This document shows positions 30,042 to 54,209 of a stretch of DNA of 64,000 nucleotides, in pieces. This DNA is from Saprospirales bacterium GYS_P2D. GTDB taxonomy: Bacteria > Bacteroidota > Bacteroidia > Chitinophagales > Saprospiraceae. A program made the translations under genes and the position numbers. The notes beneath the pieces are model-generated. The model was given only the letters and a program-made list of their open reading frames with translations, did no database searches and had not been told where the DNA came from. The number at the start of each line of letters is the position of its first letter. The first letter of the stretch is position 1. The DNA lies in the NCBI GenBank assembly GCA_009833045.1, contig WUUP01000001.1:179586-243585 (forward strand), read 5' to 3'.

Positions 30042-30720
30042 GGTATTCGTATCGAGATACTTAGCAGAGGAGAGTCCTCTTTTGGCCTATTTACGTAGTG
30101 AGCAGATAGAGTTCCAGGCCGAGTCATTGATAGCATTTACAGATGTTTCGTTTGATCTTCCATTGACAGATTGGCTATTCTTTTATAGTAAGAAAGGGGT
30201 TCAACATTTCTTGAATCAAGCTGCGCTAAAAGATCTCGAGTCATATCATATCGCTTGCTATGGAGGAGGCACGTCACGCTACTTTGAGTCTGTCACAGAT
30301 CGCACTGCGGATTTCGTAGGTACAGGTATCAGTGATACGACCTTAGCCCCTCTACTTGATGCTATCGGCGATGACTCCATCGCATTCGTACATGGTCAGC
30401 GCTCAGTCCGAGCTGTAGAAAAGAAACTTCCTAATCACATCAATCACTCCAGCGTTGTGGTTTATGACAATCAGCAGCGCACTGATGTAGCCCTCTCACA
30501 CTATGACATAGCCCTCATGACCAGCCCGATGAACTATCGAGCCTTCATCGCTAATGGTGGCAGCACAGATCACATCATCGCCATCGGGCCTACTACCGCA
30601 GCAGCTATAGAGCAGCACAACCTTCAAAAAAGTATTGAAATCAAATCGCTGCACAGCGCCCATTCGCCCTCCGAGGCGGCGATGCTGAATCTACTGAAGT
30701 CCTTGATATGGCAGACTTAG
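30031..30720 (+). CDS. hemD: Uroporphyrinogen-III synthase
   Basis: 229 residues from ATG 30031 (an ATG at 30028 is equally possible; a GTG at 29998 lies inside the preceding gene). Cyclises hydroxymethylbilane to uroporphyrinogen III with inversion of ring D. The family is weakly conserved; recognition rests on KVFVSRYLAEESPLLAYL at the start, LFFYSKKGVQHFL (S/T-K-x-G/A-V motif), and ALMTSPMNYRAFI and IIAIGPTTAAAIEQ in the second lobe, plus position next to hemC. It ends overlapping the 3' end of the convergent 4-hydroxybutyryl-CoA dehydratase gene by four bases. Confidence 0.88.
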   Translation: MKTKVFVSRYLAEESPLLAYLRSEQIEFQAESLIAFTDVSFDLPLTDWLFFYSKKGVQHFLNQAALKDLESYHIACYGGGTSRYFESVTDRTADFVGTGISDTTLAPLLDAIGDDSIAFVHGQRSVRAVEKKLPNHINHSSVVVYDNQQRTDVALSHYDIALMTSPMNYRAFIANGGSTDHIIAIGPTTAAAIEQHNLQKSIEIKSLHSAHSPSEAAMLNLLKSLIWQT

Positions 30721-32228
30721 GCTTCTGGCACTCTGAATACTCGCTCAAAATATCCTGTCAGTTCATCTATGGTCTCACGCTCATCGATCGAGTCAATACC
30801 TGCGAGCACTCTTGATAGTCTTTTCTTGTACTCGAGCTGCATAGCCCGTCCGATCTGTATACGCTGCGCCTGAGGAGATCCAGCTCCATGCATGCTCTCC
30901 GTAAGATAGCCTACGGCATTGCGCCCCAGCGTCATATTCTCGATGAGACGCAGCATACGCATACGATCTTCGACAGGGACCGACTCTTTAGCTTTGAGGT
31001 ACTTCTTGATGAGCGCTCCGATCTCAGGATGATTGAGATCTGCCTCTGATGGCATAGTCACCATCATACCTCCGGCCAGATCCTGAGCAAGCCGAGCGAT
31101 CTCGTAGGGCAGCTTAGTCACGTGATGTTTGCAGACATTAGCGATCATGTCATCGCAGAGATAGCAGCCTGACTTGGTGGCATAGCCCTGATAGCTCGCA
31201 GCTATACCTGTCGCATAGATCGTCTCATTGAGATGAGTCATCTCGACCAGTTTATCCTTGATGTGAGAGGCTTTGGGCACACCATTCATTTCGGCGATAT
31301 TGGCTGCAGCCCCAATGAGCACATCCCCTACTCCACTTTTGCACACATAGCTACGGCGATGATAGGCAGTGAATCGCTCAACGAGCAAAGCTGCATAGTC
31401 ATACTCCCCATCCATGAAGATCCGCTCATGAGGTATGAAGACCTCATCGAAAATCACCATCGCCTCTTGGCCTCCATAGAGATTATTGCCAGTATCTATA
31501 GAGCCACCCTCCATCGCTCTCATATCACAGCTCTGACGACCATAGATATAGGTGATACCCTCTGCATCGACAGGCACCGCTCCGATGATAGCATAGTCTC
31601 GATCGGCCTCACTGAGGCGCATCGTCGGCATGACGAGCATCCAGTGACTATTGACACAGCCCGTCTGATGTGCCTTAGCTCCAGAGATATAGACACCTTG
31701 GTCATCTCGACGTACTACTCTGACAAACATGTCAGGATCAGCCTGCTGATGTGGAGCCAGACTACGATCTCCTTTGACATCAGTCATGGCACCGCCCACT
31801 ACATAGTTGTGCCGATGCATATCTGTCAAGAAGGTCTTAAATCGATCGTGATAGGCTGTACCATGAGCCTCGTCCATCTCGTAGGTGGTAGAGTACAGCG
31901 CATTTGACGCATCCATCCCTACGCACCGCTGAAAGCAGGTACCTGTATTCTGTCCAAGCTTTCGCTGCATTTTGTTTTGCAAGACCAGATCACGAGTGCT
32001 CGTACAGATATTGAGAAATCGACTGACCCGCTCTCCAGTGAATGGCGAAATAACAGTCGCCAGCTCAGGAGCACGCACACCCAGATCATAGGTCTCCGCC
32101 ACCGCATTGATAGAAGGGCGCATGATCGGATGATCTACAGGCTCCTCTACCCGCTCTCCAAAAAGATATACTTTTAGATTTCGACCTCTGAGAGAGTCGA
32201 TGTACTGATCGCCTGTTTCGATTTTCAT
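30717..32228 (-). CDS. abfD: 4-hydroxybutyryl-CoA dehydratase / vinylacetyl-CoA isomerase
   Basis: 503 residues from ATG 32228, which opens MKIETGDQYIDSLRGRNLKV; an earlier frame would overlap the crotonase gene. By family knowledge this FAD and [4Fe-4S] enzyme converts 4-hydroxybutyryl-CoA to crotonyl-CoA and isomerises vinylacetyl-CoA. Cluster ligands C98 and C102 (TCFQRC) are present, as are T189, E255 and the C-terminal TESMHGAGSPQAQR. The third and fourth ligands are H290 and C296 in HRRSYVC, so the spacing is one residue shorter than the clostridial H292/C299 pair. KASHIKDKLVEMTHLNETIY and the C-terminal third match the clostridial enzyme closely, which separates it from the related HpaB hydroxylases. 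It follows the crotonase gene by 10 bases in one operon. Confidence 0.88.
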   Translation of the reverse strand: MKIETGDQYIDSLRGRNLKVYLFGERVEEPVDHPIMRPSINAVAETYDLGVRAPELATVISPFTGERVSRFLNICTSTRDLVLQNKMQRKLGQNTGTCFQRCVGMDASNALYSTTYEMDEAHGTAYHDRFKTFLTDMHRHNYVVGGAMTDVKGDRSLAPHQQADPDMFVRVVRRDDQGVYISGAKAHQTGCVNSHWMLVMPTMRLSEADRDYAIIGAVPVDAEGITYIYGRQSCDMRAMEGGSIDTGNNLYGGQEAMVIFDEVFIPHERIFMDGEYDYAALLVERFTAYHRRSYVCKSGVGDVLIGAAANIAEMNGVPKASHIKDKLVEMTHLNETIYATGIAASYQGYATKSGCYLCDDMIANVCKHHVTKLPYEIARLAQDLAGGMMVTMPSEADLNHPEIGALIKKYLKAKESVPVEDRMRMLRLIENMTLGRNAVGYLTESMHGAGSPQAQRIQIGRAMQLEYKKRLSRVLAGIDSIDERETIDELTGYFERVFRVPEA

Positions 32229-32238
32229 TTTTGTAACT

Positions 32239-33036
32239 TTATTTCCCTTCAAATTTTGGTTTTCGCTTTTGGATGAATGCCATTACGCCTTCACTAAAGT
32301 CCTTGCTTACGAGACATTTAGCTTGATTTTCAGCTTCATAGATAGTGTTTTCATACAGAGAATGAGATACCGCATGATGGAGATCTCGCTTAGTGATGGC
32401 CATTGCTATCGGTGCTTTTTGAGCGAGCTGTTCGGCCCACTTTTGTGCTTCCTCCATGATAGATGCTGGCGGTGCTATACGATTACACAGTCCGAGACGG
32501 TGACATTCTTGAGCAGAGATCTTATCACCACTGGTGACGATCTCATAGGCCTTACTATATCCTACTGCTCTCACTATGAGCCAGCCTGCGCCACCGTCGG
32601 GTCCAAGCCCAATATTGATAAAAGGATATCTCAGTACTGCATCCTCTGCCATGATACGCAGATCACAGGCTAAGGCAAAAGCCAATGACACACCCGACAC
32701 CGCACCATGTATCGCAGCGATGACAGGCACATCGAGATGCATGATCTTTTTGACGATAGATCCATAGTACATCGGTATATACTCCACCACCTCCGCAGCG
32801 GACTGTATATTCATGCTTTTCAGGTCTGCCCCTGCACTAAATCCTGGGTCTGCTCCTCGGAGCACTACTGCCCGTACAGAGCTGTCAAATTTAGCATTGT
32901 CTAATCCCTGTAGTAGTCCGAGCGTTAAGTCATGATTGACACTATTGTACCGATCGGGACGATTGAGGGTGATGTAAGCGACATTGTTTTCTGTATGATA
33001 GAGTACCGATTCGTTGGGCATGTGTGATTCACTCAT
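32239..33036 (-). CDS. Enoyl-CoA hydratase/isomerase family protein, PaaG-like
   Basis: 265 residues, crotonase fold: LNRPDRYNSV, SAGADLKSM (oxyanion loop) and ALACDLRIMAEDAV. The two catalytic Glu of true hydratases are replaced (Ser117 and Phe139 at the matching positions), while Asp147 in GLGPDGGAGW is kept, as in PaaG-type isomerases. An isomerase activity is therefore more likely than hydration. Start at 33036, with a second ATG at codon 6. It is the first gene of a two-gene operon with 4-hydroxybutyryl-CoA dehydratase. The other phenylacetate (paa) genes are absent here. Confidence 0.88.
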   Translation of the reverse strand: MSESHMPNESVLYHTENNVAYITLNRPDRYNSVNHDLTLGLLQGLDNAKFDSSVRAVVLRGADPGFSAGADLKSMNIQSAAEVVEYIPMYYGSIVKKIMHLDVPVIAAIHGAVSGVSLAFALACDLRIMAEDAVLRYPFINIGLGPDGGAGWLIVRAVGYSKAYEIVTSGDKISAQECHRLGLCNRIAPPASIMEEAQKWAEQLAQKAPIAMAITKRDLHHAVSHSLYENTIYEAENQAKCLVSKDFSEGVMAFIQKRKPKFEGK

Positions 33037-33301: not shown

Positions 33302-33384
33302 GATAGATAGCCGACACATAAGTGTATGTGATGTGTATTGTGTCTGTATAGTATGGGACATCACCAGCGCAAAGCCAATAGCTG

Positions 33385-33392
33385 TAACTTTG
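33385..33392 (+). promoter_or_regulatory. Putative -7 box (TAACTTTG) of giant kinase gene
   Basis: TAACTTTG fits TAnnTTTG exactly and lies 51 bases upstream of ATG 33443. It is inside the longer open frame that begins at 33338, which supports the downstream start. The -33 element is not clear. Confidence 0.5.
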
Positions 33393-33442
33393 TATCACTG
33401 ACATCCCATCACAATGCATTTAACCAAACAAACACCCAGCAA

Positions 33443-36400
33443 ATGAACACTACTGAGAACCATGAAGAGTGGGATATAGAGCGGCTACAGACCAGACTCC
33501 GCAGAAAACTCTTCAGTATCGATGTACTGGCCAATGTCATCTTAGGACTCATCATCCTTTTCTGCTTTACTATATTCTTTGATCTCAATTGGGAGGCATA
33601 TGCGATCATGTTGAGCCTCAACGCCATCTATATGAGCTTTTTTATTCTCGAGCGCTTCACCAAAGTAGATATATTCCAATACTCCAAGTTCATATTTCTA
33701 TACTTCCCGACCTTGGCTATTGTGTTCACCTCTATTATATTACCCCAAGTTCATTTTGAGGCGGTATTCTTTTTGCCATTGGTGATGGCGGTATTCATCT
33801 ACGAGATAGAGCTGAATAAAGCTAAATGGATCATCATGGCCCTCCTATGTATCGGAATGATCATCCAGCTCACAGAGCACATGAACAATCCCTATGATGG
33901 CTCTCAGTCGATCCAAATGCAGCTGCTCTATGCCGTCATCATACTAAGTACGCTATATAGTATGATCAGGCTATATCTAATATCTGAATGGATATATTTT
34001 CATAACCAGCAAATCACCTATGCTCATAAGCGTGTAGAAGAAAAACGTCAAGAGCTACAAAGCTTCATGAGTGATATCCCAAGTGGCTATAGCGTATTCA
34101 CTGCAGCTGCCCAGCGTCTATACTGTAGCCAAGAATCAGCGAATATTTTTGGATATGAGACAGTAGCGGAGCTCCAGAGTGTAGCACTACCAAAACTCTT
34201 TGCTGATGAAGAATCTATTGCTAAGATGGAAAAGCTCATAGCTGATACACAGTCTGGCCACTATCATCAGGAAGGACTCGAGCTCAATGCTCTCCACAAG
34301 TCAGGAAGAGAAATGGTACTCAAATGTCGAGCCAGCATAAAAAAAATAAACAATCAGAACCGCCTCTCCATAGTCTATCAAGACCAAACAGAAGAAATAA
34401 AGAGGAACAAAGAAATCCAAGCCAACGAAAGACTACTACAGTCAATCATCAATACTACTCAAGATGGCCTCATGGTCATCGATAGAGATCATACCATAGT
34501 CCACGCCAATCAAGTATCTCTAAATGACCTAAAAATTAATGAAACTCCAGAGACCATAGCAGGACAAAACCTATTAGATTTTGTCCCACAAGAAAATCAA
34601 GAGCGAGTCTTGCCATTAATGCAAGAAGCTTTTGACGGAGTCAACAAAAGAATCCAAATAGCATCTAAACTGATCCCAGGGAAATATTTGGACATGAGCT
34701 ATCATCCTATCCATAATGGCTCACAGGGTGTAGACAAAATACTCGCTTCATACAGAGATATCAGTGATATCAAGAGTAAAGAAAAGGAACTCAAAGAAAC
34801 TACCCATAAACTCCAAACCATCATAGATACCATACCAGGAGGTATAGCTATCATAGGACTCGACGCTAAGCTCAAGTATATATCAAAGGAGATCGTAGAA
34901 GAATTTGACTATGCTACTGAGGAGCTCATCGGCACCAGCATACTGGACTACTACGACGACGAAGGAAAAGACAGACTCCTAAAATATACTCAGTATCTGC
35001 TCGAAGGTAAGACACCTAAAATGCTAAAGCTCAGAGCATTCAGAAAGGATGGTAGTAGTATCTATATGAATGGGACAGGGCGACTCATGTACGACAGTGA
35101 ATACGACGAGACGGTGATCATAGCTGTATTCATGAACACTACTGATATGGCAAAAGTGGAAGAGGAAAAAGAAAAAACTCAAGCGACGCTCAATGCCATA
35201 TTCAATAGTACATCAGACTCTATCATCGCCTATGATACTGACTACAATATCTTAGCCTACAATCCTAAGTGGCTCGAAAACTATCACAAAGTATCGGACA
35301 GATCTATAGATGGACATAAAAATCTCAAAAGTATCCTACCATCAGAAGTATTCACATTCCTCAGTCAGAATACAGAGAAAGCAATGAGCGAAGGATACTA
35401 TGAGATAAAAAAAGCACATGATCTGGTACCAGGAGAGACCAATCATATCCGAGTAGTACCGCTCATAGATCATCGCAATCGTACCATTGGCGTATTAGAG
35501 GTCATGACCGATATATCTGAGTCGATCAAAAAAGAAAAGGAACTAAATAAATCCCGACGCATATTTGACGATGTATTTAGACATTCTCCCAATGGTATCA
35601 TCAGAATACGAGATCATAAGATAGCAGATGCTAATCCTGCCTTCTGCAGTATGCTCGGATATGACAAATCCGACATTGTGGGTCACCATCCTCGAGCATT
35701 CTCTACTGGAGAAGGTATGGATAGGATCGAAAAAGAAATAAGGGACTCCATAGCCCAAAGAAAAAAAGGGACCACCGTCCATCACCTAATGGAGACCAAA
35801 CAAGGTAACACCAAAAATGTAGTCGTCAATGTCATACATGAATATGAAGACGAGCAACTGATAGAGTCTATATGTACGATCACAGATGTCACTCCGATCA
35901 TAGAAGCGGAGAAAGAGGTCCTAAAATCACGAGAAAAATATAAATCGCTTTTTGAGCTCTCATTGACTGGCAAATATGTAGCCACGAGTCATGTGATCGA
36001 ACAAGTCAATCCTGCACTCAGCGGCCTGATCGGATATCCTGAGGCGGAGATCATCGACAAGAGTATACTCAACTTCACCATCCCAGAAGATCGTCAGCTC
36101 ATAGAATATAAGATAAACAATGATCGAGTAAATGGCAACTCCAATACTGATGTGGTCACTAAGCTGGTACATAAAGATGGATCTGAGATAGATGTGATAC
36201 TACGCATCGCCTATATCTATGATGCCGATGGGAGATATGTGTCCGAATTTGGAAATATCATCGACCTCACTACTTTAGTGTTCACGGAGAGAGCTCTGTC
36301 GGAGAGTGAGAAGTCCTATCAGCGACTGATCGAGCTACTCCCTGGGGGCGTAGTCGAGACTGATCTTAATGGTATCGTCCTCTCTGCGTCTAATAACGCC

Positions 36401-37771
36401 TGTGACATCCTCAACATTAGCCGAGACAAGCTCATCGGGCAAAACTCCTTTACTATCATAGACAAGGCAGGTGAAGAAGAAATCATCAAACAACTGGAGT
36501 ATCTCAAGGGCAAAAACACCACCACGAAAGTAAGGATCAAGACTCAGCATAAAGACAAGGCTCCAATGTATCTCGATGTACTACTCAAGGTCATAAAACC
36601 ACCTGAGCAAAAATCTAAGGTTTTCGCCATATTCATAGAGGTATCAGATGAGGTCAAGGCACAAGAGGACCTCAATAGACAGACCATTACTCTGGATACT
36701 ATCCTGGAAAGTAGCCCAGACTGTGTATGTGCCATCGACCAAAGGTACAACATGTTCATGGCGAATAACAACATGAAGAAAAAATTAAAAACCATCTACA
36801 ATGTGGACTATCACCCTGGTATGAATGTCCGTGAAGTATTCCCCAAAGAAGCCTTTGAGCATATAAATAAAAACTACTTCCAGCCTACCTTTGAAGGAGA
36901 TGAAATCATAGATGTAGTGCCTGTCAGCATAGGTGATAATACGTTTATCTACAAGGATAGCTTTGCACCGCTCAAAATCAATGATGACGTCACAGCTTGT
37001 GTCATCTACTCACACGATATCACCGAGGAAGTGAATAATCAAAAAATCATCGAAAAGCAGGTGGTCGAAATGGAGAAATATATCGAATCAAATCTCCAGT
37101 TGGAGAACTTTGCCTACATCGCCTCTCATGACCTCAAAGCTCCACTGAGGACAGTGAATAGCTTTGCCTTCTTGCTCAAGAACAGTGTCTATAAAGACCT
37201 CAACGAGCGTCAGAAAGAATTCATGGATATCATACTTGACAGCTCCAAAAAAATGCAAATACTGATAGATGATCTACTGACTTTCTCACGTATCAATACA
37301 CAGAAGACTAAGATCGAGAAAACTAACTTCAGAGATATACTTGATCAGGTCATAGGACAGCTGGATGTAGATATCCATACGTATGGCACCGAGGTCATCA
37401 TCCAAGATCTCCCAGAAGATATATGGGCAGACAGTGTAAAAATGAGTCAACTCTTGCTCAATCTCATCAGCAATGGTATCAAGTTTAGCAAGAATCAGGA
37501 GAAGCCAAAAATCACCATATCTGGCTATGAGTCGGACAGCTACTGGTACTACTCCATAGCTGACAATGGTATAGGTATCAAAGAAGATAACCAAAAAGTC
37601 ATATTCGAGATATTCAAAAAGCTACATAGCAATGATGTATTCGAAGGGACAGGTCTGGGACTCACGATATGTAGTAAGATCATCGATCAGCATGGCGGAC
37701 AGATCTGGGTAGAGTCTACCTATGGAGAGGGCAGTACATTCCACTTCTCCATAGCCAAACAAAATCAGTAA
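33443..37771 (+). CDS. Membrane-bound histidine kinase with eight PAS domains
   Basis: 1442 residues from ATG 33443; the frame is open to 33338, but those codons lie upstream of the likely promoter and do not resemble protein. Residues about 27-180 are a six-helix membrane module with LPQVHFEAVFFLPLVMAVFI. Eight PAS domains follow (starts visible at SDIPSGYSV, NTTQDGLMV, DTIPGGIAI, NSTSDSIIA, RHSPNGIIR, ELSLTGKYV, ELLPGGVVE and ESSPDCVCA). His1229 in ASHDLKAPLRT is the phosphorylated residue, and the HATPase part ends with DNGIGI, GTGLGL and GGQIWVES. There is no receiver in the protein; a CheY-like receiver gene follows 103 bases later. Signals sensed are unknown. Confidence 0.93.
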   Translation: MNTTENHEEWDIERLQTRLRRKLFSIDVLANVILGLIILFCFTIFFDLNWEAYAIMLSLNAIYMSFFILERFTKVDIFQYSKFIFLYFPTLAIVFTSIILPQVHFEAVFFLPLVMAVFIYEIELNKAKWIIMALLCIGMIIQLTEHMNNPYDGSQSIQMQLLYAVIILSTLYSMIRLYLISEWIYFHNQQITYAHKRVEEKRQELQSFMSDIPSGYSVFTAAAQRLYCSQESANIFGYETVAELQSVALPKLFADEESIAKMEKLIADTQSGHYHQEGLELNALHKSGREMVLKCRASIKKINNQNRLSIVYQDQTEEIKRNKEIQANERLLQSIINTTQDGLMVIDRDHTIVHANQVSLNDLKINETPETIAGQNLLDFVPQENQERVLPLMQEAFDGVNKRIQIASKLIPGKYLDMSYHPIHNGSQGVDKILASYRDISDIKSKEKELKETTHKLQTIIDTIPGGIAIIGLDAKLKYISKEIVEEFDYATEELIGTSILDYYDDEGKDRLLKYTQYLLEGKTPKMLKLRAFRKDGSSIYMNGTGRLMYDSEYDETVIIAVFMNTTDMAKVEEEKEKTQATLNAIFNSTSDSIIAYDTDYNILAYNPKWLENYHKVSDRSIDGHKNLKSILPSEVFTFLSQNTEKAMSEGYYEIKKAHDLVPGETNHIRVVPLIDHRNRTIGVLEVMTDISESIKKEKELNKSRRIFDDVFRHSPNGIIRIRDHKIADANPAFCSMLGYDKSDIVGHHPRAFSTGEGMDRIEKEIRDSIAQRKKGTTVHHLMETKQGNTKNVVVNVIHEYEDEQLIESICTITDVTPIIEAEKEVLKSREKYKSLFELSLTGKYVATSHVIEQVNPALSGLIGYPEAEIIDKSILNFTIPEDRQLIEYKINNDRVNGNSNTDVVTKLVHKDGSEIDVILRIAYIYDADGRYVSEFGNIIDLTTLVFTERALSESEKSYQRLIELLPGGVVETDLNGIVLSASNNACDILNISRDKLIGQNSFTIIDKAGEEEIIKQLEYLKGKNTTTKVRIKTQHKDKAPMYLDVLLKVIKPPEQKSKVFAIFIEVSDEVKAQEDLNRQTITLDTILESSPDCVCAIDQRYNMFMANNNMKKKLKTIYNVDYHPGMNVREVFPKEAFEHINKNYFQPTFEGDEIIDVVPVSIGDNTFIYKDSFAPLKINDDVTACVIYSHDITEEVNNQKIIEKQVVEMEKYIESNLQLENFAYIASHDLKAPLRTVNSFAFLLKNSVYKDLNERQKEFMDIILDSSKKMQILIDDLLTFSRINTQKTKIEKTNFRDILDQVIGQLDVDIHTYGTEVIIQDLPEDIWADSVKMSQLLLNLISNGIKFSKNQEKPKITISGYESDSYWYYSIADNGIGIKEDNQKVIFEIFKKLHSNDVFEGTGLGLTICSKIIDQHGGQIWVESTYGEGSTFHFSIAKQNQ

Positions 37772-37874
37772 TATGACTTATGTCGAAAAACCGATGAAAC
37801 TTGTAGATTATTTGTGGTTTAAATTATGATTATATTTAGCGTTATTTGCCCGAAATCTCAGTAACACACCCTAA

Positions 37875-38345
37875 ATGAATTGTAACTTCAGCTCAAAGAA
37901 GATCCTCCTGATCGAGGATAATATAGGCGATGTAAAACTCATCGAAGAAGCTATCAATGCTAATGATCTCAACGTAGAGCTCATAGTATTAGACGATGGA
38001 GAGAAAGCTAAGAAATACTACAACCAATGCGTAGAAGATCAATACACTGACCTACCAGATCTTATCATATGTGATCTCAATCTACCTCGATTTAAGGGAG
38101 ATGAAATCATAAAGCTCATCAAAAAGGATCCTATCATGAAGGTGATCCCTCTGATCGTGCTCACTACCTCTAATCTCGATCTGGATATACATAAGTGCTA
38201 CGAGCTTGGCGCTAATGCTTATTTGATCAAACCATTAGATGTATTGGAGTTTTTTGATATGATCCTTCAGGTGCACAATTTTTGGTTTAAACTCGCTCTA
38301 CCTGCTCCCATCGTAACAGAAGACAAAAAAATAGGAGATATCTGA
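37875..38345 (+). CDS. CheY-like single-domain response regulator
   Basis: 156 residues, receiver only. Acidic pair EDN (14-16), phospho-acceptor Asp67 in IICDLNLPRFKG, Thr/Ser in VLTTSN and Lys in LIKPLD are all present. Such Rcp1-like receivers pair with PAS-rich kinases; the giant kinase lies directly upstream on the same strand. Output is probably by protein interaction. The stop codon sits in the loop of a terminator hairpin. Confidence 0.93.
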   Translation: MNCNFSSKKILLIEDNIGDVKLIEEAINANDLNVELIVLDDGEKAKKYYNQCVEDQYTDLPDLIICDLNLPRFKGDEIIKLIKKDPIMKVIPLIVLTTSNLDLDIHKCYELGANAYLIKPLDVLEFFDMILQVHNFWFKLALPAPIVTEDKKIGDI

Positions 38346-40738: not shown

Positions 40739-42436
40739 TCAAGCTATCAGAAAGTCAAAATAAGCTTTGAGGATCTTATCATTTTCTTCTCGAGGAGTGA
40801 ATACTTCTATCAAGCCAGGACGCACATCATCAGCTATCACACTATTCATAGCCGAGACCAGAGACTCTGTACTATCTGCTGCCATATAGCTCACACCATG
40901 CATTTCACACAGATGCTGAGCAGAAGTGCGATGGTGTGCCTCAAAATGCCTTGCAAGATGCTCGGTACTCCCTGGCCCGGGTATAAATCTGAAGATGTTT
41001 CCACCTTGATTATTCAGCAAAATAACCTTGAGATTAGGTCTGAGCTGCTGGTGCCAAAAGGCATTACTATCATAAAAGAAAGCTACATCTCCAGTGATCA
41101 AAACATTGAGATCGTCAGACTGATAGCTATATCCTACCGCAGTAGAAGTACAGCCATCGATACCACTCACTCCACGATTACAGTGATAGCTCCATGCCCC
41201 TTCTGTGTCAAAAAGCTGAATATATCGTATGGATGTGCTATTAGCTAAGTGCAGTTGTACACCTACTTTTGGTAGCGCCTTGACGACCTGGGCGATAGCC
41301 TGTAGATCTGACCATGGGGCTAATGTCAAAAAGCTCTCATGTCGCTCTCTGCGGTGTACAGCGAGATCCATCCACCACTTATTATACTGATCCGATTTCT
41401 CGGCAGAGATCACAGGTGCTATCACATCAACTAAGGTGGATATACTGAGCTGTATCTGATCGGTGAGCTGCTGGTAGGTATCTATCGTACCATCCTCAGC
41501 TGACACATGCCAGTGCTCTTGGATATTCATCTCTCTGAGCAAAAATCGTATCTTCTTTGAGACAATGGAGCCACCACAGCTGATGAGCAGTGTAGGTGTA
41601 CCCGCAGCCTTGTCCTCTGACGACCATCCATGAATCGTACGATCGATACAGGGTATTATAGCCTCATCTGCAAGATTAGAGCTTGATTCACTAAGTACTA
41701 GTACTCGACTATCTTGGGCAATGGTTTTGATAGCCTTTGTCCATGTTTCATCTTTTGGATGCTGACCACAAAGGATTAAAATCCGATCATGAGCATCAAA
41801 TCTCAATCGCAGCTCTTCGGCTACCTCATCTCCTACACTGAGCACAGGGGCAGTGAGATTTATAATCTTAGGAGATACGACCGTAGATTGGTCGATCTGA
41901 TCATAGAGCGGTTCTTTGAGCGGTAGATTGATGTGTACCGGACCTACAGGACCTGAGCGAGCGGTATTGATAGCTTCATTCACGATGCGGTCATTATACC
42001 AGAGATGATCATCGACCTCGGCCTCCTCCAGGAGTTGATAGCTTTTCTTGATGTAGTTGTTGTAGACATTGTTTTGCCTCATGGTCTGGCCGGCTCGCTG
42101 GTCGATCCACTCCACTGGCCGATCTGCCGTGAGTACGATCAGGGGCACTCGCTGATAGTAGGCCTCTGATACAGCTGGAGCATAGTTGAGAGCAGCACTC
42201 CCAGAAGTACAGCAGATGGCTACTGGCTCTCCGCACTGCTGTGCCCAGCCTAATGCAAAAAACGCTGCCGTGCGCTCATCCGGGATATTCACACAGTGAA
42301 AAGCTGGATCATTCGCAAAAGCTATTACCAAGGGCGCATTTCTCGATCCAGGACTGAACACTATTCGGTGAACCCCTTTAGCTCTACAGATGAGTGCTAA
42401 TCGTGCTATAGATTTTTTAGACGTAGTCCTAATCAT
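40739..42436 (-). CDS. menD: 2-succinyl-5-enolpyruvyl-6-hydroxy-3-cyclohexene-1-carboxylate synthase
   Basis: 565 residues from ATG 42436, chosen for the four-base overlap with menF and because the protein starts MIRTTSKKSIARLALICRAK. ThDP-dependent enzyme adding a succinate semialdehyde unit from 2-oxoglutarate to isochorismate. FSPGSRNAPL, the ThDP-activating Glu in DERTAAFFALG, and TSGSAALNYAPAVSEAYY, VPLIVLTADRP and ITGDVAFFYDSNAF are all MenD signatures. It is the last gene of the operon menC-menE-menF-menD. Confidence 0.96.
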   Translation of the reverse strand: MIRTTSKKSIARLALICRAKGVHRIVFSPGSRNAPLVIAFANDPAFHCVNIPDERTAAFFALGWAQQCGEPVAICCTSGSAALNYAPAVSEAYYQRVPLIVLTADRPVEWIDQRAGQTMRQNNVYNNYIKKSYQLLEEAEVDDHLWYNDRIVNEAINTARSGPVGPVHINLPLKEPLYDQIDQSTVVSPKIINLTAPVLSVGDEVAEELRLRFDAHDRILILCGQHPKDETWTKAIKTIAQDSRVLVLSESSSNLADEAIIPCIDRTIHGWSSEDKAAGTPTLLISCGGSIVSKKIRFLLREMNIQEHWHVSAEDGTIDTYQQLTDQIQLSISTLVDVIAPVISAEKSDQYNKWWMDLAVHRRERHESFLTLAPWSDLQAIAQVVKALPKVGVQLHLANSTSIRYIQLFDTEGAWSYHCNRGVSGIDGCTSTAVGYSYQSDDLNVLITGDVAFFYDSNAFWHQQLRPNLKVILLNNQGGNIFRFIPGPGSTEHLARHFEAHHRTSAQHLCEMHGVSYMAADSTESLVSAMNSVIADDVRPGLIEVFTPREENDKILKAYFDFLIA

Positions 42437-43512
42437 GAGTTCGCAGGGCAATGTTGTAAGATAGATAGGAGCGTCGAGGCTTTATCTTCTGTCTCTTCCC
42501 ATTCTGCAGCGGGATCGCTATCAGCGGTGATACCACCTCCCAAATATAAGATAGCCGCATCACGACTCAGCTGCATGCTTCTGAGATTGATGAATAGTCG
42601 CTGAGCTCCATTTATTCCTACTGGACCCAGATAGCCCGTATAGTCTTGACGATCATGACGCTCGTACTTTTTAATTTTTTTCATCGCCGCTCCCTGAGGC
42701 ATACCGCTAATCGCCGGACCAGGATGAAGTAGCTGAGCCAATCTCATGAAGTCGACACCATCGGTAGAGATGTGATAGTCAGTGGCTATGTGTCTGACAG
42801 GACCAGCTACCAGCGTATAGTCCTCTGACTCTTCATAGGAGAGATTGGCTATAGCCAACTTGTTTTTCACAAAATCTTTCAGAAATGCTTGTTCAGCAAT
42901 CTCCTTCTCTCCCCAAACGGTCTGGCTGACTGGTACTCCGCTATCATACTGAGTCCCGGCCAGAGCCATGGTATGATAATATCCATCTCCTTTGCTCAGC
43001 AATACCTCGGGAGTAGCCCCCATCCATAATCCACTACCAGGTATGTGATAGCAGAATACAAAAGCACTCATGCGAGAAGTCAATAACTGCTCAAACAAGG
43101 CGAAAATATCAGTTCGCTCTTGAGCTACTTTTTTGATCTTAGAGTAAACTAACTTATCATACTCTCCTGATCGGATATCAGAGATGATCTTAGTGACATC
43201 AGACATGTAGTCGCTGTAGGAGGTAGATGATATATCTATTGACTCAGTCAGCTCAAACTGAAAAGGAGTATTCTGCATAACATGATCTGCTCGGATAGCT
43301 CTCAGACTATCAGTAGTCTTACTAAAAGAATCTACCACAAAAGCGGATGACTGCCCGTCAAATAAAGTTGTATAAGCACGATCGTCTTGAAAAACTAAGT
43401 AGTAGTCACTTTCACCCGGCAGACTATAAGCTACAAAAGCTTCTGTCGCTCGAAAAATGCGTTTTATCTCATTGCTTTCATCCTCCATATCATAGATATA
43501 AACAGGCATCAA
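42433..43512 (-). CDS. menF: Isochorismate synthase
   Basis: 359 residues, chorismate-binding fold. VTKIISDIRSGEYDKLVYSKI, PGSGLWMGATPEVLL, MALAGTQ and ISGMPQGAAMKKIKKYERHDR with YTGYLGPVG are typical of the isochorismate synthase/anthranilate synthase family. Its position among men genes assigns it to menaquinone rather than siderophore synthesis. Two tandem ATGs begin the gene; the second overlaps the menE end as well. Converts chorismate to isochorismate. Confidence 0.94.
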   Translation of the reverse strand: MMPVYIYDMEDESNEIKRIFRATEAFVAYSLPGESDYYLVFQDDRAYTTLFDGQSSAFVVDSFSKTTDSLRAIRADHVMQNTPFQFELTESIDISSTSYSDYMSDVTKIISDIRSGEYDKLVYSKIKKVAQERTDIFALFEQLLTSRMSAFVFCYHIPGSGLWMGATPEVLLSKGDGYYHTMALAGTQYDSGVPVSQTVWGEKEIAEQAFLKDFVKNKLAIANLSYEESEDYTLVAGPVRHIATDYHISTDGVDFMRLAQLLHPGPAISGMPQGAAMKKIKKYERHDRQDYTGYLGPVGINGAQRLFINLRSMQLSRDAAILYLGGGITADSDPAAEWEETEDKASTLLSILQHCPANS

Positions 43513-44561
43513 TCACTTAAGTTCAGCCCATCAGCCAGTGCATATCGCTCCACCTGACGGATTACTTTTCCTGTCGGTGTTTCTTCAAATTTGGCCACAA
43601 AATAAATCAATTTTGGTCGCTCATATTTAGTCAATCTGATCCTGATTCCATTCCGGAGTTTATTTAGGTCAGTTGAATCTTTATTTCCTTCTATGATCAT
43701 GATCAGCTTTTCTCCGAGGAGAGGATCTGCTACAGAAGCGATAAAAAAGCGATGAGTTATTGAGGAACTTAGATTTCGTTCGACTTCTTCAGGGTGAATC
43801 TTCACACCACCAGAGTTGATCACATGATCATACCTACCTCTCCATCTAAAGGAATGCTCATCTACCAGATCCACTATATCATTAGTCAGTAGCGAATCAT
43901 CTAATAAATGTGGAGCAGTAATAATCAAACGAGACTCCCCATCTACCTCAAAGCTCACCCCGCCCACCGCCTCGAAGGGCGCTAAGCCTCCATCCGATAA
44001 GGGCCTAACAGCCACGTGAGTGATCGTCTCTGTCATGCCGTACGTATGATAAAATCTTGTATCTCCACTATAGCCATCTATCTCTGCCTGTAGCTCCGCT
44101 GACACAGGGCCTCCTCCCAAAATAATCTGCCTACAAAGTCCTATCTGCTGAGGACAATCTCTAAAAGCTAAAAGCAGCTGCATAGGAGTCATCGCTACAA
44201 AATCAACAGCTGTCTCTAATTGCACAAGAGGATTGCTCTGGGGCTCTATCAACACTATATCCATCTGACCAATGATAGCTCTCACCACCATCATCTTGCC
44301 AGCGATATACTTCACAGGTAGACAGAGTAATGCTCGATCTTCTTTGTCCAAATTGAAATACTCTATGGTCCGCTCTGCACTGGCTATCATCCTGTTTTTT
44401 GAGAGTGATATTACTTTGGGAGTACCCGTGGAGCCACTCGTCTTGATATGATAGGTAGTAGCATTATCCCAGTCTCTGAGGAGCTGCAGCACTTCCTCCA
44501 CCCATGGAGCGTCATGCTGCCAATTGATATTTATGTCTTGACCATTGAGATATACCTTCAT
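43509..44561 (-). CDS. menE: O-succinylbenzoate-CoA ligase, short form
   Basis: 350 residues, AMP-forming acyl-CoA synthetase. The phosphate loop KTSGSTGTPKVISLSK is already at residue about 40, so the N-terminal subdomain of longer MenE proteins (about 450 residues or more) is missing. Later motifs are intact: TYGMTETITHVAVR, the adenylate Asp in RWRGRYDHVINSGGVKIHPEEVE, and the C-terminal catalytic Lys in TPTGKVIRQ. Short MenE proteins are known in Bacteroidota. It follows menC by 6 bases and overlaps menF by four. Confidence 0.92.
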   Translation of the reverse strand: MKVYLNGQDININWQHDAPWVEEVLQLLRDWDNATTYHIKTSGSTGTPKVISLSKNRMIASAERTIEYFNLDKEDRALLCLPVKYIAGKMMVVRAIIGQMDIVLIEPQSNPLVQLETAVDFVAMTPMQLLLAFRDCPQQIGLCRQIILGGGPVSAELQAEIDGYSGDTRFYHTYGMTETITHVAVRPLSDGGLAPFEAVGGVSFEVDGESRLIITAPHLLDDSLLTNDIVDLVDEHSFRWRGRYDHVINSGGVKIHPEEVERNLSSSITHRFFIASVADPLLGEKLIMIIEGNKDSTDLNKLRNGIRIRLTKYERPKLIYFVAKFEETPTGKVIRQVERYALADGLNLSD

Positions 44562-44567
44562 GATAAT

Positions 44568-49827: not shown

Positions 49828-51234
49828 ATGTCTAAGTATAACTATCAACAGCTATATAGCCAATACCACTTAAACGAGAAAAATCAGCAGCTACAGCAAC
49901 AGCTGGGTAGCTACCTCAGTCAATCTACTGAGGAATCTCGACCTGTGATTGATTTTACTGAGCCCGACGTAGAATATCAGTACTGGAAAGAGGCTTCTGT
50001 AACTGACTTTGCTGATTTTCAGCAGCAGCTCATCGAGCGATCTATCGCTCTACATCACCCCAAGTATATGGGCCATCAAGTGGCAGTGCCGTTACCAGAT
50101 ATAGCACTACTGGGCGCCACCTCTGATCTGCTCAATAATGGTATGGGCATCTATGAAATGGGCGCTGCTGGCACCGCTATGGAGAGAGTGTGCATAGATT
50201 ACTTTGCAGCAGCGATCGGGTATAGTGATGGAGCCTCTGGATTTTTGACATCAGGTGGTACTCTGGGTAATCTCACTGCGCTACTGGCTGCTCGTGCCAA
50301 AGCTAAAAGTAGACATCCTAAACAAGAAAAATGGGCGCTGATGGTATCCGAGCAGGCTCACTTTTGTGTAGAGCGGGCAGGCATCACTATGGGACTCTCC
50401 AATGATGATATCATCAAGGTAAAAACCATGCCCAACTATCAGATGGACATGTCAGATCTCAAAAAAAGATATAAACGGGCACTATCAGATGGATACCAGA
50501 TCATCGCTGTCATAGCCAGTGAGTGTAGCACCTCCACTGGCACCTATGATCAGCTGGATGAGATAGTTGACTTTTGTCAAAATAATGACCTGTGGCTGCA
50601 TGTAGACGGCGCCCATGGTGGAGCGGCGATATTCTCAGACAAGCTCAAGGCCAAGCTACTCCCATCGGTCGAGCTGGCAGACTCGATAGTCATCGATGCT
50701 CACAAGATGATGCTCGTACCGGCATTGGCTACAGCCGTAGTCTTCAAAAATGGAGATGATAGCTATAATAGCTTTAAACAGAAGGCTGACTACCTATTTG
50801 GTAAAAACCTCAAAGACCCTCATAATCTCGCAAAACGCACCTACGAGACAACAAAATACCTGATGAGTATCAAGGTATACTATCTACTGAAAAAATACGG
50901 GCCTCAGATAGTCGCTGACTATGTCGAGCGCCAGTATGGCTTAGCACATCAGATGTGGGACTATCTCGGACGAGAATCCGACTATGAGTGTGCTCACGAA
51001 CCGATGAGCAATATCCTCTGCTTCAGATATATCCCAAAAAATGAAGATATTAATACCATCAATCAACAAATCAGAGAACAAATCCTAAATGAAGGTGAAT
51101 ACTATATCGTATCAACAGTACTCCGAGGTGAGTACTATCTACGTGTGACTCTCATGAATCCTCTCACAGAATGGCAGCATATCCTGTCACTCATCCAGAC
51201 CATACGAGAGAAAGGTGCTAATCTATCCTCCTAA
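49828..51234 (+). CDS. Group II PLP-dependent amino-acid decarboxylase
   Basis: 468 residues from ATG 49828 (ATG 49810 is also possible). HPKYMGHQVAVPLPDIALLG, GFLTSGGTLGNLTALLAAR and HVDGAHGGAAIFS are conserved substrate and PLP contacts; the Schiff-base Lys is in IDAHKMMLVP. The family includes 2,4-diaminobutyrate, glutamate and aromatic amino-acid decarboxylases; the sequence looks closest to the diaminobutyrate/tyrosine-like group, but the substrate is not determined. Monocistronic; its last four bases overlap the convergent kinase-like gene. Confidence 0.9.
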   Translation: MSKYNYQQLYSQYHLNEKNQQLQQQLGSYLSQSTEESRPVIDFTEPDVEYQYWKEASVTDFADFQQQLIERSIALHHPKYMGHQVAVPLPDIALLGATSDLLNNGMGIYEMGAAGTAMERVCIDYFAAAIGYSDGASGFLTSGGTLGNLTALLAARAKAKSRHPKQEKWALMVSEQAHFCVERAGITMGLSNDDIIKVKTMPNYQMDMSDLKKRYKRALSDGYQIIAVIASECSTSTGTYDQLDEIVDFCQNNDLWLHVDGAHGGAAIFSDKLKAKLLPSVELADSIVIDAHKMMLVPALATAVVFKNGDDSYNSFKQKADYLFGKNLKDPHNLAKRTYETTKYLMSIKVYYLLKKYGPQIVADYVERQYGLAHQMWDYLGRESDYECAHEPMSNILCFRYIPKNEDINTINQQIREQILNEGEYYIVSTVLRGEYYLRVTLMNPLTEWQHILSLIQTIREKGANLSS

Positions 51235-52307
51235 GAGAATAGATTAGTCACTCTATTTTTTTCGATAGCTCGCAGTGCCTTAAAACAGAATCCTTCTGCT
51301 GCTTTGCCCAATGCGGCGAATCGCTTGTCCTGAGTGTAGCCGTGATGATAGCGATAGTAGATCTGCTGTACGATCACAGCTGTCTTGAATAGGCCATAGA
51401 CATAGTAATAAATAACATTGCTGACATCTCGACCTGATCGCTCAGCATACATATCTATGAGTTGGGCTTTGTTGGGATTGCCCGCCTGATAAGTGGGTAG
51501 TGAGATCAGCTCTCCGAATACGGCCAGATCTTCCTCCTCACTCCAATATGCCAAAGTAGTACCAAAATCCATTAATGGATCTCCCAATGTCGCCATCTCC
51601 CAGTCCAAAATCGCCACGATCTTAGTCCAGTCATCCTGAGCAAACATGACATTATCATACTTATAGTCATTGTGTATCAAGGTATGATCTGACTCTGTAG
51701 GGATGCTACTATTGAGCCACTCCATCACCTTTTCGATGACTTTGACATCGTCGGTCTTTGCCTTCAGATAGCGCTTCGTCCAGCCCTTGACCTGTCGCTC
51801 GTTAAATCCTTCAGGCTTACCCAGATCGCCGAGTCCCGCCTGCTCATAGTCCACCTCATGGAGCTCCACAAATGTATCGAGCCATGCCTGAGACATGATC
51901 GGATAGATCTCTTCACCGCCTTCTGTGAGCCCTTTGCCCCGTACGATGACTCCTTGGACTCGATCCATGACATAAAACTCACTACCAATGACACTATCAT
52001 CAGTACAGTGCCCATAGACCTCAGGTACTTTGTCAAATACTGGCTTGAGCAGATTTTGCACCTTGTACTCACGGCCCATGTCGTGTCCACTCTTGACATT
52101 AGCTCCAAATGGCGGACGTCGCAGGACGAGCTCCTTGTTTCCGACCTTCAAGAAGTAAGTCAGATTAGAGTATCCACCTGGAAATTGCTTCACCTCGATA
52201 GGAGCATCCCAGTCAGGGTTGAGACCTTGAAGATACTGGCTCAGCTGAGTCGTGTCGAGCTCCTCTCCTGCCCGGACCTTGATGGGTTGATCTATTTGTT
52301 TAGCCAT
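51231..52307 (-). CDS. APH-family phosphotransferase (ACAD10/11- and LvaA-like)
   Basis: 358 residues. PGGYSNLTYFLKV and LVLRRPPFG form the ATP loop and Lys/Arg region; the catalytic segment is IHNDYKYDNVMF (Asp214, Asn219), and Asp235 in AILDWEMATLGDPLMDFG is the metal ligand. This subgroup resembles the kinase domain of ACAD10/ACAD11 and LvaA of Pseudomonas, which phosphorylate the 4-hydroxyl of 4-hydroxyacyl-CoA. It starts two bases after the SDR gene and is the last gene of a three-gene group with a lactonase-like propeller. Aminoglycoside resistance is very unlikely given the motif set. Confidence 0.88.
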   Translation of the reverse strand: MAKQIDQPIKVRAGEELDTTQLSQYLQGLNPDWDAPIEVKQFPGGYSNLTYFLKVGNKELVLRRPPFGANVKSGHDMGREYKVQNLLKPVFDKVPEVYGHCTDDSVIGSEFYVMDRVQGVIVRGKGLTEGGEEIYPIMSQAWLDTFVELHEVDYEQAGLGDLGKPEGFNERQVKGWTKRYLKAKTDDVKVIEKVMEWLNSSIPTESDHTLIHNDYKYDNVMFAQDDWTKIVAILDWEMATLGDPLMDFGTTLAYWSEEEDLAVFGELISLPTYQAGNPNKAQLIDMYAERSGRDVSNVIYYYVYGLFKTAVIVQQIYYRYHHGYTQDKRFAALGKAAEGFCFKALRAIEKNRVTNLFS

Positions 52308-52309
52308 GA

Positions 52310-53047
52310 TTATCTAGAGTATCCTCCATCAATAGGTAGGCATATACCAGAGACAAATCTCGACTCCTCAGATGCCAGATATAGATATCCATAGGCTATA
52401 TCGATCGGATCTGCTAAGAATCCTACTGGGATCGTCATGAGCGCCATTTGTTTGACATTGTCAGGGATAGCATCTGTCATCGGCGTCTTAGTATATCCTG
52501 GAGCTATAGCATTAGCAGTGATACCGTATTTGCCAAATTCTACTGCCCATGTCTTTGTCATACCGATCACACCCGCCTTAGTGGCAGCATAGTTAGTCTG
52601 TCCATAGTTGCCACGAAGTCCTGTAGTGCTGGCAGCACTCACGATACGTCCATAGCCGTTTTCTTTCATGATTTTCACTACTGCTCGGGTAGCATAGAAT
52701 ATACCTGTTAGATTGACAGCGATCACAGCATCCCACTCTTCGTCAGACATTTTGAGCATAGTCTTGTCTCGAGTGATACCTGCGTTATTGATGAGGATAT
52801 CGATGCGTCCATACTTTTCAGCTGCGGCCGCTACTGCTGATTCTACAGCTGCTTTATCTGTGATCGATACTTTGACGAATTCTGCGGTGCCACCATTCGC
52901 ATTGATATCTGCAGCTACCTGCTCGCCTTCATCGAGTAGATCCCAGATGAGGACTTTAGCGCCTTCTTGGGCGAATAGTTCTGCTGTCGCTTGGCCGATA
53001 CCTCGAGCTCCTCCAGTGACTATCGCTACTTTATCTTTTAGTCTCAT
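52310..53047 (-). CDS. SDR, 3-oxoacyl-ACP/CoA reductase type (FabG-like)
   Basis: 245 residues, classical SDR. TGGARGIG is at 11-18, NNAG at 87-90, catalytic Ser140, Tyr153 and Lys157 (NYAATKAG), with VNAIAPGYTKTPMT-like product segment. Best family match is FabG/PhaB, reducing 3-oxoacyl thioesters with NAD(P)H. No fatty-acid synthesis genes surround it; instead it sits between a lactonase-like gene (31 bases upstream) and an acyl-CoA-kinase-like gene (2 bases downstream), which suggests a catabolic acyl-CoA role. Confidence 0.92.
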   Translation of the reverse strand: MRLKDKVAIVTGGARGIGQATAELFAQEGAKVLIWDLLDEGEQVAADINANGGTAEFVKVSITDKAAVESAVAAAAEKYGRIDILINNAGITRDKTMLKMSDEEWDAVIAVNLTGIFYATRAVVKIMKENGYGRIVSAASTTGLRGNYGQTNYAATKAGVIGMTKTWAVEFGKYGITANAIAPGYTKTPMTDAIPDNVKQMALMTIPVGFLADPIDIAYGYLYLASEESRFVSGICLPIDGGYSR

Positions 53048-53078: not shown

Positions 53079-54140
53079 TTATATTTTTGATATTTTCATT
53101 TTTCCGATTCCATTATCCTTTAGCGATCCGACGTAGATATGATCTCCGTACTGCTGTATCGAGGTGATCTCATATACGGGAGGATGATCGGATTGATAGT
53201 TTTCTAAGATATTTCCATCGCCATCTATGCGCATGATATGACCGTAGTGACCATTCATATCAGTAGGTAGGATAGAGGGTACTTTCATGAGTTGTTTTCG
53301 CAGCCACTTATTACGCATCATATCGTCCGTCGAGGTACTGCGTGGAGATACCAGTGTGAGCCAATATGTCCCATCTCCAGCAGAGCTAACATTGTCGGGA
53401 TATCCTGGGAGATTATCCATGATCAGCTCATCTGTTCCTTTTTTGGGACCACTTAGGTGGAATTTTCTTACTTGCTGAGAGCCTGTCTCATTGACTAATA
53501 CATAGCTGGTATCCTGCGCCACTGCTACACCATTTGCAAATTGTAATCCGTCTAATAGCATCTCTGTCTCACGAGTCTCAGGGTCATAAACCAGGAGCCG
53601 ACCATGCCCTCCATGCTCGACGATGTCCAGCATCGTCTGGTGAAACTGATATTTGCTCGATGCATCGCTGAAGTAATAACGGCCATCTGGGCCTACCTCT
53701 ATATCATCAGCGAATCGAAATGGTAATCCATCTGCCTCAGTAGATAGCACCTCGACATCTCCATCTGGAGACATCTGGATGAGTCCGGCGTAGGCATCTG
53801 CTATGATCAGCCGATCACCATCAAAATCCAATCCCAAGGGCCTACCACCTGTATTAGCAATGGTACTAACCTCATCTCCATCCATGCGGATGATGTCACC
53901 ATTTTCTTGGCCTCCATAGAGTACTCCCTGTGTATCGATAGCGACATCCTCACAGCGCACACATTGATTCTCGTATATTTTTTCGAGCTTATCCAGTCTA
54001 TCATTGCGTTCATAGGGGCCTGCGAGAGCTGGTATTGGCTGTGGATCACAGTCCTGAGGATCGATAGGGCTGGGCCATATCAAAAATCCCACGACCAAAA
54101 TCAATAAAGCCAGTAATAGATAGAATAGCATTTTTTTCAT
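53079..54140 (-). CDS. Membrane-anchored SMP-30/strictosidine-synthase-like lactonase
   Basis: 353 residues from ATG 54140 (MKKMLFYLLLALLILVVGFL), giving a single N-terminal membrane anchor with the rest outside the cytoplasm. The body is a six-bladed propeller: CEDVAIDTQGVLYGG, FADDIEVGPDGRYYFSDAS, FANGVAVAQDTSYVLVNETG and YPDNVSSAGDGTYWLTLVS contain the Glu, Asp/Asn and Asp residues that bind calcium in SMP-30, paraoxonase-like and strictosidine-synthase-like enzymes. Known members hydrolyse lactones or organophosphates. First gene of the group with the SDR and the APH-family kinase. Confidence 0.82.
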   Translation of the reverse strand: MKKMLFYLLLALLILVVGFLIWPSPIDPQDCDPQPIPALAGPYERNDRLDKLEKIYENQCVRCEDVAIDTQGVLYGGQENGDIIRMDGDEVSTIANTGGRPLGLDFDGDRLIIADAYAGLIQMSPDGDVEVLSTEADGLPFRFADDIEVGPDGRYYFSDASSKYQFHQTMLDIVEHGGHGRLLVYDPETRETEMLLDGLQFANGVAVAQDTSYVLVNETGSQQVRKFHLSGPKKGTDELIMDNLPGYPDNVSSAGDGTYWLTLVSPRSTSTDDMMRNKWLRKQLMKVPSILPTDMNGHYGHIMRIDGDGNILENYQSDHPPVYEITSIQQYGDHIYVGSLKDNGIGKMKISKI

Positions 54141-54209
54141 CACTCCCAATGTAAGGAGATCTCTACTCTATCACTTGATTCAAAATTGGCAAATAGCCAA
54201 ATGAACCTG

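Follow-up and report, generated by a model that had tools for sequence, protein, structure and literature searches.

4-Hydroxybutyryl-CoA dehydratase (4HBD) is commonly treated as a key enzyme of archaeal autotrophic carbon fixation, and it has been used to propose autotrophy in bacteria (PMC9802188). Bacterial 4HBDs of SBR1093, Bradyrhizobiaceae and Luminiphilus have been given to a proposed 3-hydroxypropionate/4-hydroxybutyrate (HP/HB) cycle (PMC4195664; PMC9802188). Whereas 4HBD performs a radical dehydration, ACAD10/ACAD11 and the bacterial LvaA/LvaC are described as taking 4-hydroxyacyl-CoA to 2-enoyl-CoA by phosphorylation and then elimination (PMC11342911, PMC12440821). The isomerase PaaG employs Asp136 and a Tyr80 lid (PMC7497051). 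Here we describe a 4HBD-like dehydratase (P0001) and a PaaG-like crotonase (P0002) encoded side by side in a 64,000-nucleotide stretch of the genome of Saprospirales bacterium GYS_P2D, family Saprospiraceae. We call the whole stretch the window and give positions in it; the host genome assembly is 4.95 Mb in 28 contigs and 99.35% complete.

30717..32228, minus strand: P0001, 4HBD-like dehydratase, 503 aa (Pfam, structure matches, alignment)
32239..33036, minus strand: P0002, PaaG-like crotonase, 265 aa (Pfam, alignments, fold comparison)
31338..31361, minus strand: HRRSYVCK motif of P0001, H290 to K297, with H-x5-C spacing (computed from the ATG at 32228)

Both open reading frames lay where an earlier note on this DNA had placed them. 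Although the open frame of P0001 begins with TTG at 32252, homology favours the ATG at 32228 as the probable start, which gives the note's numbering H290 and C296. The crotonase gene lies upstream on the same strand, with 10 bases between its stop and the dehydratase ATG, and the pair is probably co-transcribed. In our preferred explanation, to which we assign a probability of about 0.6, the pair encodes a real 4HBD and a Delta3,Delta2-enoyl-CoA isomerase-type crotonase that would act in sequence to bring a 4-hydroxyacyl-CoA into beta-oxidation. We infer both activities and the order of the steps from observed sequence identity, catalytic positions, gene layout and co-occurrence.

The enzyme itself is not new, since bacterial 4HBDs have already been published (PMC4195664, PMC9802188). 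Like those of SBR1093, Bradyrhizobiaceae and Luminiphilus, P0001 is bacterial and from outside the fermentative clostridia; those enzymes were assigned to the proposed HP/HB cycle, whereas the Saprospiraceae 4HBD is tied by co-occurrence to a set of acyl-CoA dehydrogenase (ACAD) and MaoC genes. In the literature searched we found no report of a crotonase-4HBD pairing or of an ACAD/MaoC pathway link, and no open-licence paper joining 4HBD with Saprospir*, or with steroid and acyl-CoA dehydrogenase. If true, a Bacteroidota 4HBD set tied to ACAD and hydratase genes would caution against reading 4HBD as autotrophy, and it makes testable whether radical dehydration extends past C4 substrates.

The dehydratase and its His-to-Cys spacing

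P0001 carries the Pfam domains HpaB_N (1.4e-90) and HpaB (1.1e-70). It was 68.0% identical over 497 positions (794 bits) to 6vjr, deposited as a vinylacetyl-CoA Delta-isomerase, and 56.6% identical over 475 positions (590 bits) to 1u8v; hydroxylase structures scored at most 102 bits. We take 6vjr to be Nmar_0207 of Nitrosopumilus maritimus and 1u8v to be the enzyme of Clostridium aminobutyricum. Eleven of twelve checked positions were identical to 1u8v (C99, Q101, C103, T190, E257, H292, Y296, C299, K300, E455 and A460 in its numbering); the sole mismatch was position 298, with V for G, beside a one-residue indel. The four cluster ligand positions, C98, C102, H290 and C296 in P0001, were all kept, with the roles of ligand and catalytic positions taken over from the clostridial enzyme. 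The earlier note had named the protein a 4HBD with its cluster cysteines and catalytic region in place, and the alignment agrees with it on the ligands and on the catalytic positions checked. These results suggest that P0001 is a true 4-hydroxyacyl-CoA dehydratase with [4Fe-4S] and FAD, belonging to the same 4HBD branch as the thaumarchaeal enzymes. Its conserved active site, as read from the alignment, fits 4-hydroxybutyryl-CoA, which is likely to be an accepted substrate and is the likeliest one.

The earlier note had also observed that the His-to-Cys ligand spacing is one residue shorter than in the clostridial enzyme, and had gone on to propose that the pair may act on a 4-hydroxyacyl-CoA other than, or besides, 4-hydroxybutyryl-CoA. 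The difference is real: P0001 has H-x5-C and 1u8v has H-x6-C. We aligned 78 4HBD sequences (69 after removal of nine duplicates, with four loci holding partial 4HBD frames left out) and found H-x5-C in 75 of the 78, or 66 of the 69 non-duplicates, the solved 6vjr among them. Only 1u8v and the Cetobacterium sequence had H-x6-C. That is, a survey of homologues of the kind the note had proposed did recover the short HRRSYVC-type spacing, but as the rule of the branch and not as a rarity, and H-x5-C is the ordinary state of the 4HBD branch that holds 6vjr. We therefore discarded the short spacing as a mark of a new substrate; because the checked catalytic positions are intact, it is no pointer to a different one.

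A quick tree of the 69 sequences, in which several forks were weak and long branches were flagged, placed 6vjr in a thaumarchaeal clade (support 98). P0001 and its two congeners formed a group (support 100) among Saprospiraceae, within a wider bacterial group that also holds Gammaproteobacteria. P0001 thus resembles 6vjr in identity, spacing and catalytic positions, but the loci differ: four thaumarchaeal 4HBD loci have an upstream gene of ~710 aa where P0001 has the PaaG-like crotonase, and in the one locus scanned (L068) the upstream neighbour has ADP-forming CoA-ligase domains. Likewise, the Cetobacterium relative of 1u8v sits in an operon with a CoA-transferase and a 4-hydroxybutyrate dehydrogenase.

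Two side observations concern the alignment. A second 4HBD type with the motif YHRASYVC, 60–63% identical to P0001, occurred at L032 (G484:C201:23260-24696), in one genome of the family that also carries the usual type, and at L077, on a Sphingomonas plasmid; the two clustered together in the quick tree. The third sequence without H-x5-C is a distant paralogue on a plasmid of Rhodococcus opacus (L079:6013-7419), ~31% identical, which carries a 4HBD annotation but lacks cysteines where the alignment puts those of the cluster; this makes its annotation doubtful.

The crotonase and its relatives

P0002 matched the Pfam family ECH_1 (4.8e-58). At the positions of the hydratase glutamates, which we take to be Glu144 and Glu164 in rat numbering, it reads A119 and F139, so that the enoyl-CoA hydratase Glu pair is missing. 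In turn, D147 aligns with PaaG Asp136 and Y91 with PaaG Tyr80, as in an isomerase-type enzyme. D147, Y91 and F139 were kept in all 12 members of the crotonase subfamily defined below, and a paralogue from the same genome (L112) has G, E, E and G at positions 91, 119, 139 and 147. The earlier note's description of the operon partner as PaaG-like and non-hydratase, without the two glutamates and with Asp147, thus stands at the level of sequence.

Among solved sequences the best match of P0002 was 5zai, a 3-hydroxypropionyl-CoA dehydratase, with 2ej5 and PaaG-type proteins also among the best. Its structural model had a mean pLDDT (per-residue model confidence) of 88.5, with the loop 69–75 below 50, and the nearest folds were 2ej5, PaaG (6slb, 3hrx) and 5zai, at ~35% identity. 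None of the 25 best of the 71 matched NCBIfam families reached its cut-off. P0002 scored 187 bits against the PaaG equivalog TIGR02280, whose cut-off is 345, so it is not itself a PaaG, although its way of working may be similar. In sum, it shares with PaaG (3hrx, 6sl9) the fold, the Asp and lid Tyr positions and the missing Glu pair; it differs in its equivalog score, in standing beside 4HBD in its genus and in having MaoC and ACAD genes as neighbours in several relatives. As part of our preferred explanation, we regard it as a probable Delta3,Delta2-enoyl-CoA isomerase-type crotonase.

The searched set held two further genomes of the host genus, and the crotonase-4HBD pair was present in all three, with crotonases 66% identical. 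We defined the crotonase subfamily by at least 42% identity, a limit set after seeing a gap between 43–44% and 38%; at the search's own E of 1e-45 the crotonase matches 75 of the 199 family genomes. Subfamily members occurred in 12 of the 199, of which seven also had 4HBD, and all 12 had an APH-fold kinase (113/199 overall). Two relatives (L103, L104) had the gene order crotonase, ACAD, APH-fold kinase, thereby adjoining an ACAD11-like dehydrogenase and kinase as in the ACAD10/11 route; the best match of the L103 ACAD was 4hr3, a putative acyl-CoA dehydrogenase, with ACAD11 next. A third locus (L107) read thiolase, MaoC, crotonase, histidine phosphatase, kinase, ACAD, ACAD, and two more (L102, L110) had no such ACAD, kinase or MaoC neighbours. 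Because the subfamily stands beside ACAD11-like route genes or beside 4HBD, it accompanies two chemistries for one net step. At L106:518-1945, on a 5.9 kb draft contig, a MaoC hydratase and the crotonase share one stop-free open frame, an apparent natural fusion.

Co-occurring genes, proposed reactions and rival explanations

We counted co-occurrence over 199 genomes of the Saprospiraceae (112 genera), with cut-offs fixed before the results (ACAD, E 1e-110; MaoC, 1e-35; kinase, 1e-30; the transferase AbfT, 1e-90). These tallies ignore phylogeny except in the collapsed-genus and genus-level versions, genome size is uncontrolled in them save that AbfT shows no such association, and absences are soft because most of the genomes are drafts. 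4HBD was patchy: 29 of the 199 family genomes had it, against three of 395 genomes phylum-wide (the host genome being in both sets). The large subunit of a PimC-like, two-subunit ACAD occurred in 25 genomes, 21 of them with 4HBD (p = 3.7e-18); of the 17 genera with this ACAD, 15 also had 4HBD (p = 1.2e-12, 112 genera in all). Eight 4HBD genomes lacked the ACAD and four ACAD genomes lacked 4HBD. A MaoC hydratase was found in 36 genomes, 21 with 4HBD, and in eight of the 29 4HBD genomes it lay 18 to 266 bases from the 4HBD gene.

Gene order pointed the same way. Pfam scans near 4HBD loci covered selected neighbours on both sides (20 proteins, plus 10 from pathway loci). Runs of short-chain dehydrogenase, MaoC, 4HBD, ACAD and ACAD occurred at L205 and L211. 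The same run without 4HBD occurred at L207 and L215, in genomes with no 4HBD match, and at L216, whose genome has 4HBD elsewhere. The L205 cluster also held an AMP-ligase, a hydrolase, a tandem ACAD, a strictosidine-synthase-like protein and a TonB receptor. In an actinomycetotal locus (L071), kinase, MaoC, thiolase, 4HBD and zinc-type dehydrogenase genes form one run, and the kinase there is best matched by 9o56, with ACAD11 next. None of the named gammaproteobacterial, Chloroflexi and thaumarchaeal loci compared had MaoC or the ACAD pair at strong identity (an ACAD at the Salinisphaeraceae locus L060 reached 32%), which confines a clear link to the Saprospiraceae and L071. Of the 29 4HBD genomes, 26 carry an APH-fold kinase (113/199 overall), the host among them. 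We therefore concluded that 4HBD and kinase are not mutually exclusive, and set aside the idea that 4HBD displaces the kinase route in the genus. In two Chloroflexi (L058:12034-13590 and L074:11525-13027) the gene immediately downstream of 4HBD is of the MTTB family (trimethylamine methyltransferase-like), a hint of betaine or butyrobetaine metabolism.

In the proposed sequence, P0001 would expel the 4-hydroxyl by a ketyl-radical route at a cluster held by its four ligand positions, a mechanism carried over from the clostridial enzyme. Asp147 of P0002 would then shift a proton between C2 and C4, turning any 3-enoyl-CoA into a 2-enoyl-CoA. The rest of beta-oxidation would fall to a hydratase, which in relatives is of MaoC type, and to a dehydrogenase and a thiolase. 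The natural substrate may be a 4-hydroxyacyl-CoA larger than C4, as suggested by the company of the two-subunit ACAD and the poor link to AbfT. The earlier note had likewise raised a substrate other than, or besides, 4-hydroxybutyryl-CoA; genome context (ACAD, MaoC, AbfT, kinase) lends that idea some support, and the spacing lends it none. The host ACAD large subunit is nearest 4x28_A and 6wy9/6wy8 and the small subunit nearest 6wy8_A, which we take to be heterotetrameric steroid side-chain enzymes. We offer a broader proposal tentatively, with the odds against it: that Saprospiraceae and some other bacteria recruited the radical 4HBD to replace or supplement the ACAD10/11 (LvaA/LvaC) kinase route with a step that needs no ATP and tolerates air. 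The enzyme would there dehydrate larger 4-hydroxyacyl-CoAs, perhaps from lactones or from bulky ring-bearing acids handled by the two-subunit ACAD, and one isomerase subfamily would be shared by both routes.

Several observations weigh against a 4HBD and an isomerase acting in sequence. The P0001 model falls below a pLDDT of 50 at 293–333 and 417–465, and its cluster site is too poorly modelled to judge; the P0002 model is about equally close to hydratases and to PaaG. 4HBD itself isomerises vinylacetyl-CoA, the activity under which 6vjr was deposited, so a C4 substrate gives no evident reason for a second isomerase. Nor would an isomerase be needed in the ACAD10/11 route, whose reported product is already the 2-enoyl-CoA (PMC11342911, PMC12440821). 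Outside the genus, no other examined locus, many of them with short flanks, has a subfamily member beside 4HBD, and with the genus collapsed the association is modest, at p = 0.005 counted over genomes and 0.019 counted over genera. Another genome of the class carries, directly upstream of 4HBD, a crotonase of another subfamily (L003:548-1318) that shares 24% identity, reads E, H and K at positions 119, 139 and 147 and has no lid Tyr; it argues that a P0002-type isomerase is no general partner of 4HBD, and it slightly lowered our confidence. Finally, in the host the ACAD pair and MaoC lie on other contigs and the kinase lies 18 kb from the pair.

The explanation that ranks second, though we think it unlikely, is plain breakdown of 4-hydroxybutyrate, gamma-aminobutyrate or succinate semialdehyde, in which an AbfT-type transferase would yield 4-hydroxybutyryl-CoA, 4HBD would yield crotonyl-CoA for standard enzymes, and the crotonase would be an incidental neighbour. 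The host does have a single AbfT-like transferase: its five best relatives among solved structures all bear the name 4-hydroxybutyrate CoA-transferase, and it shares 45% identity with the transferase of the 4HBD operon in Cetobacterium. The P0001 catalytic positions also match the clostridial enzyme. However, only two of 43 AbfT genomes, one being the host, have 4HBD where about six were expected (depletion p = 0.025 by genome, 0.059 by genus), AbfT is missing from the two congeneric genomes searched, and 4HBD tracks ACAD and MaoC instead. A search for an Fe-type alcohol dehydrogenase, with 13 of 14 controls positive, found none in the host; ligases and other dehydrogenases, as further ways to 4-hydroxybutyryl-CoA, were not searched for. 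Far less probable is that the pair serves autotrophic growth as the 4-hydroxybutyrate half of the HP/HB cycle. Its kinship with thaumarchaeal 4HBD and the cycle's proposal from genomes for some bacteria (PMC4195664; PMC9802188) speak for it, as does an Anaerolineae locus (L061:11495-13177) where a carboxyltransferase-domain gene, which could be part of an acetyl/propionyl-CoA carboxylase, directly follows 4HBD; but the identified neighbours at scanned Saprospiraceae loci, among those selected, were mostly beta-oxidation genes.

Two further alternatives concern the proteins themselves. P0002 might perform another crotonase-fold reaction on the 4HBD product, such as hydrolysis or retro-aldol cleavage; its subthreshold family scores, that for PaaG included, and its best match to 5zai allow for this, but all 12 subfamily members retain the isomerase-type Asp and the lid Tyr, and PaaG isomerases are among the nearest folds, so we consider it improbable. 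That P0001 is an HpaB-type flavin-dependent hydroxylase mislabelled as a dehydratase is scarcely credible. Its Pfam domains bear HpaB names, but the sequence contradicts this reading: its HpaB equivalog scores are 148.5 and 85.7 against cut-offs of 480.2 and 885.2, hydroxylase structures trail the 4HBD structures widely in bits, and the four ligand positions are kept. A real 4HBD with an isomerase-type partner therefore remains our preferred explanation.

Other genes of the host and window

4HBD is single-copy in the host genome (search at E 0.001). The kinase of the window and two genes beside it are as follows.

51231..52307, minus strand: APH-fold kinase, best matched by 9o56 (named aminoglycoside phosphotransferase), then 3dxp, then the ACAD11 kinase domain
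52310..53047, minus strand: FabG-like short-chain dehydrogenase, directly upstream of the kinase
53079..54149, minus strand: strictosidine-synthase/SMP-30-like protein, which resembles lactonases by family membership only and shares 35% identity with one in the L205 4HBD cluster

The match of this kinase to the ACAD11 kinase domain (E 5.3e-46) is third after 9o56 and 3dxp, and it is possible that the kinase belongs to the same pathway as the pair. No ACAD11-type dehydrogenase partner was found in the window, the rest of the genome not having been searched for it. An Rfam scan of the window gave 0 matches. Downstream of the pair, a convergent uroporphyrinogen-III-synthase-like gene overlaps the dehydratase end by 4 bases. 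Upstream and divergent (33338-38345) lie genes for a PAS-rich histidine kinase of 1477 aa and a response regulator. At 42433-45590, chorismate-binding, AMP-binding and enolase-superfamily genes adjoin one another, a row that resembles menaquinone synthesis.

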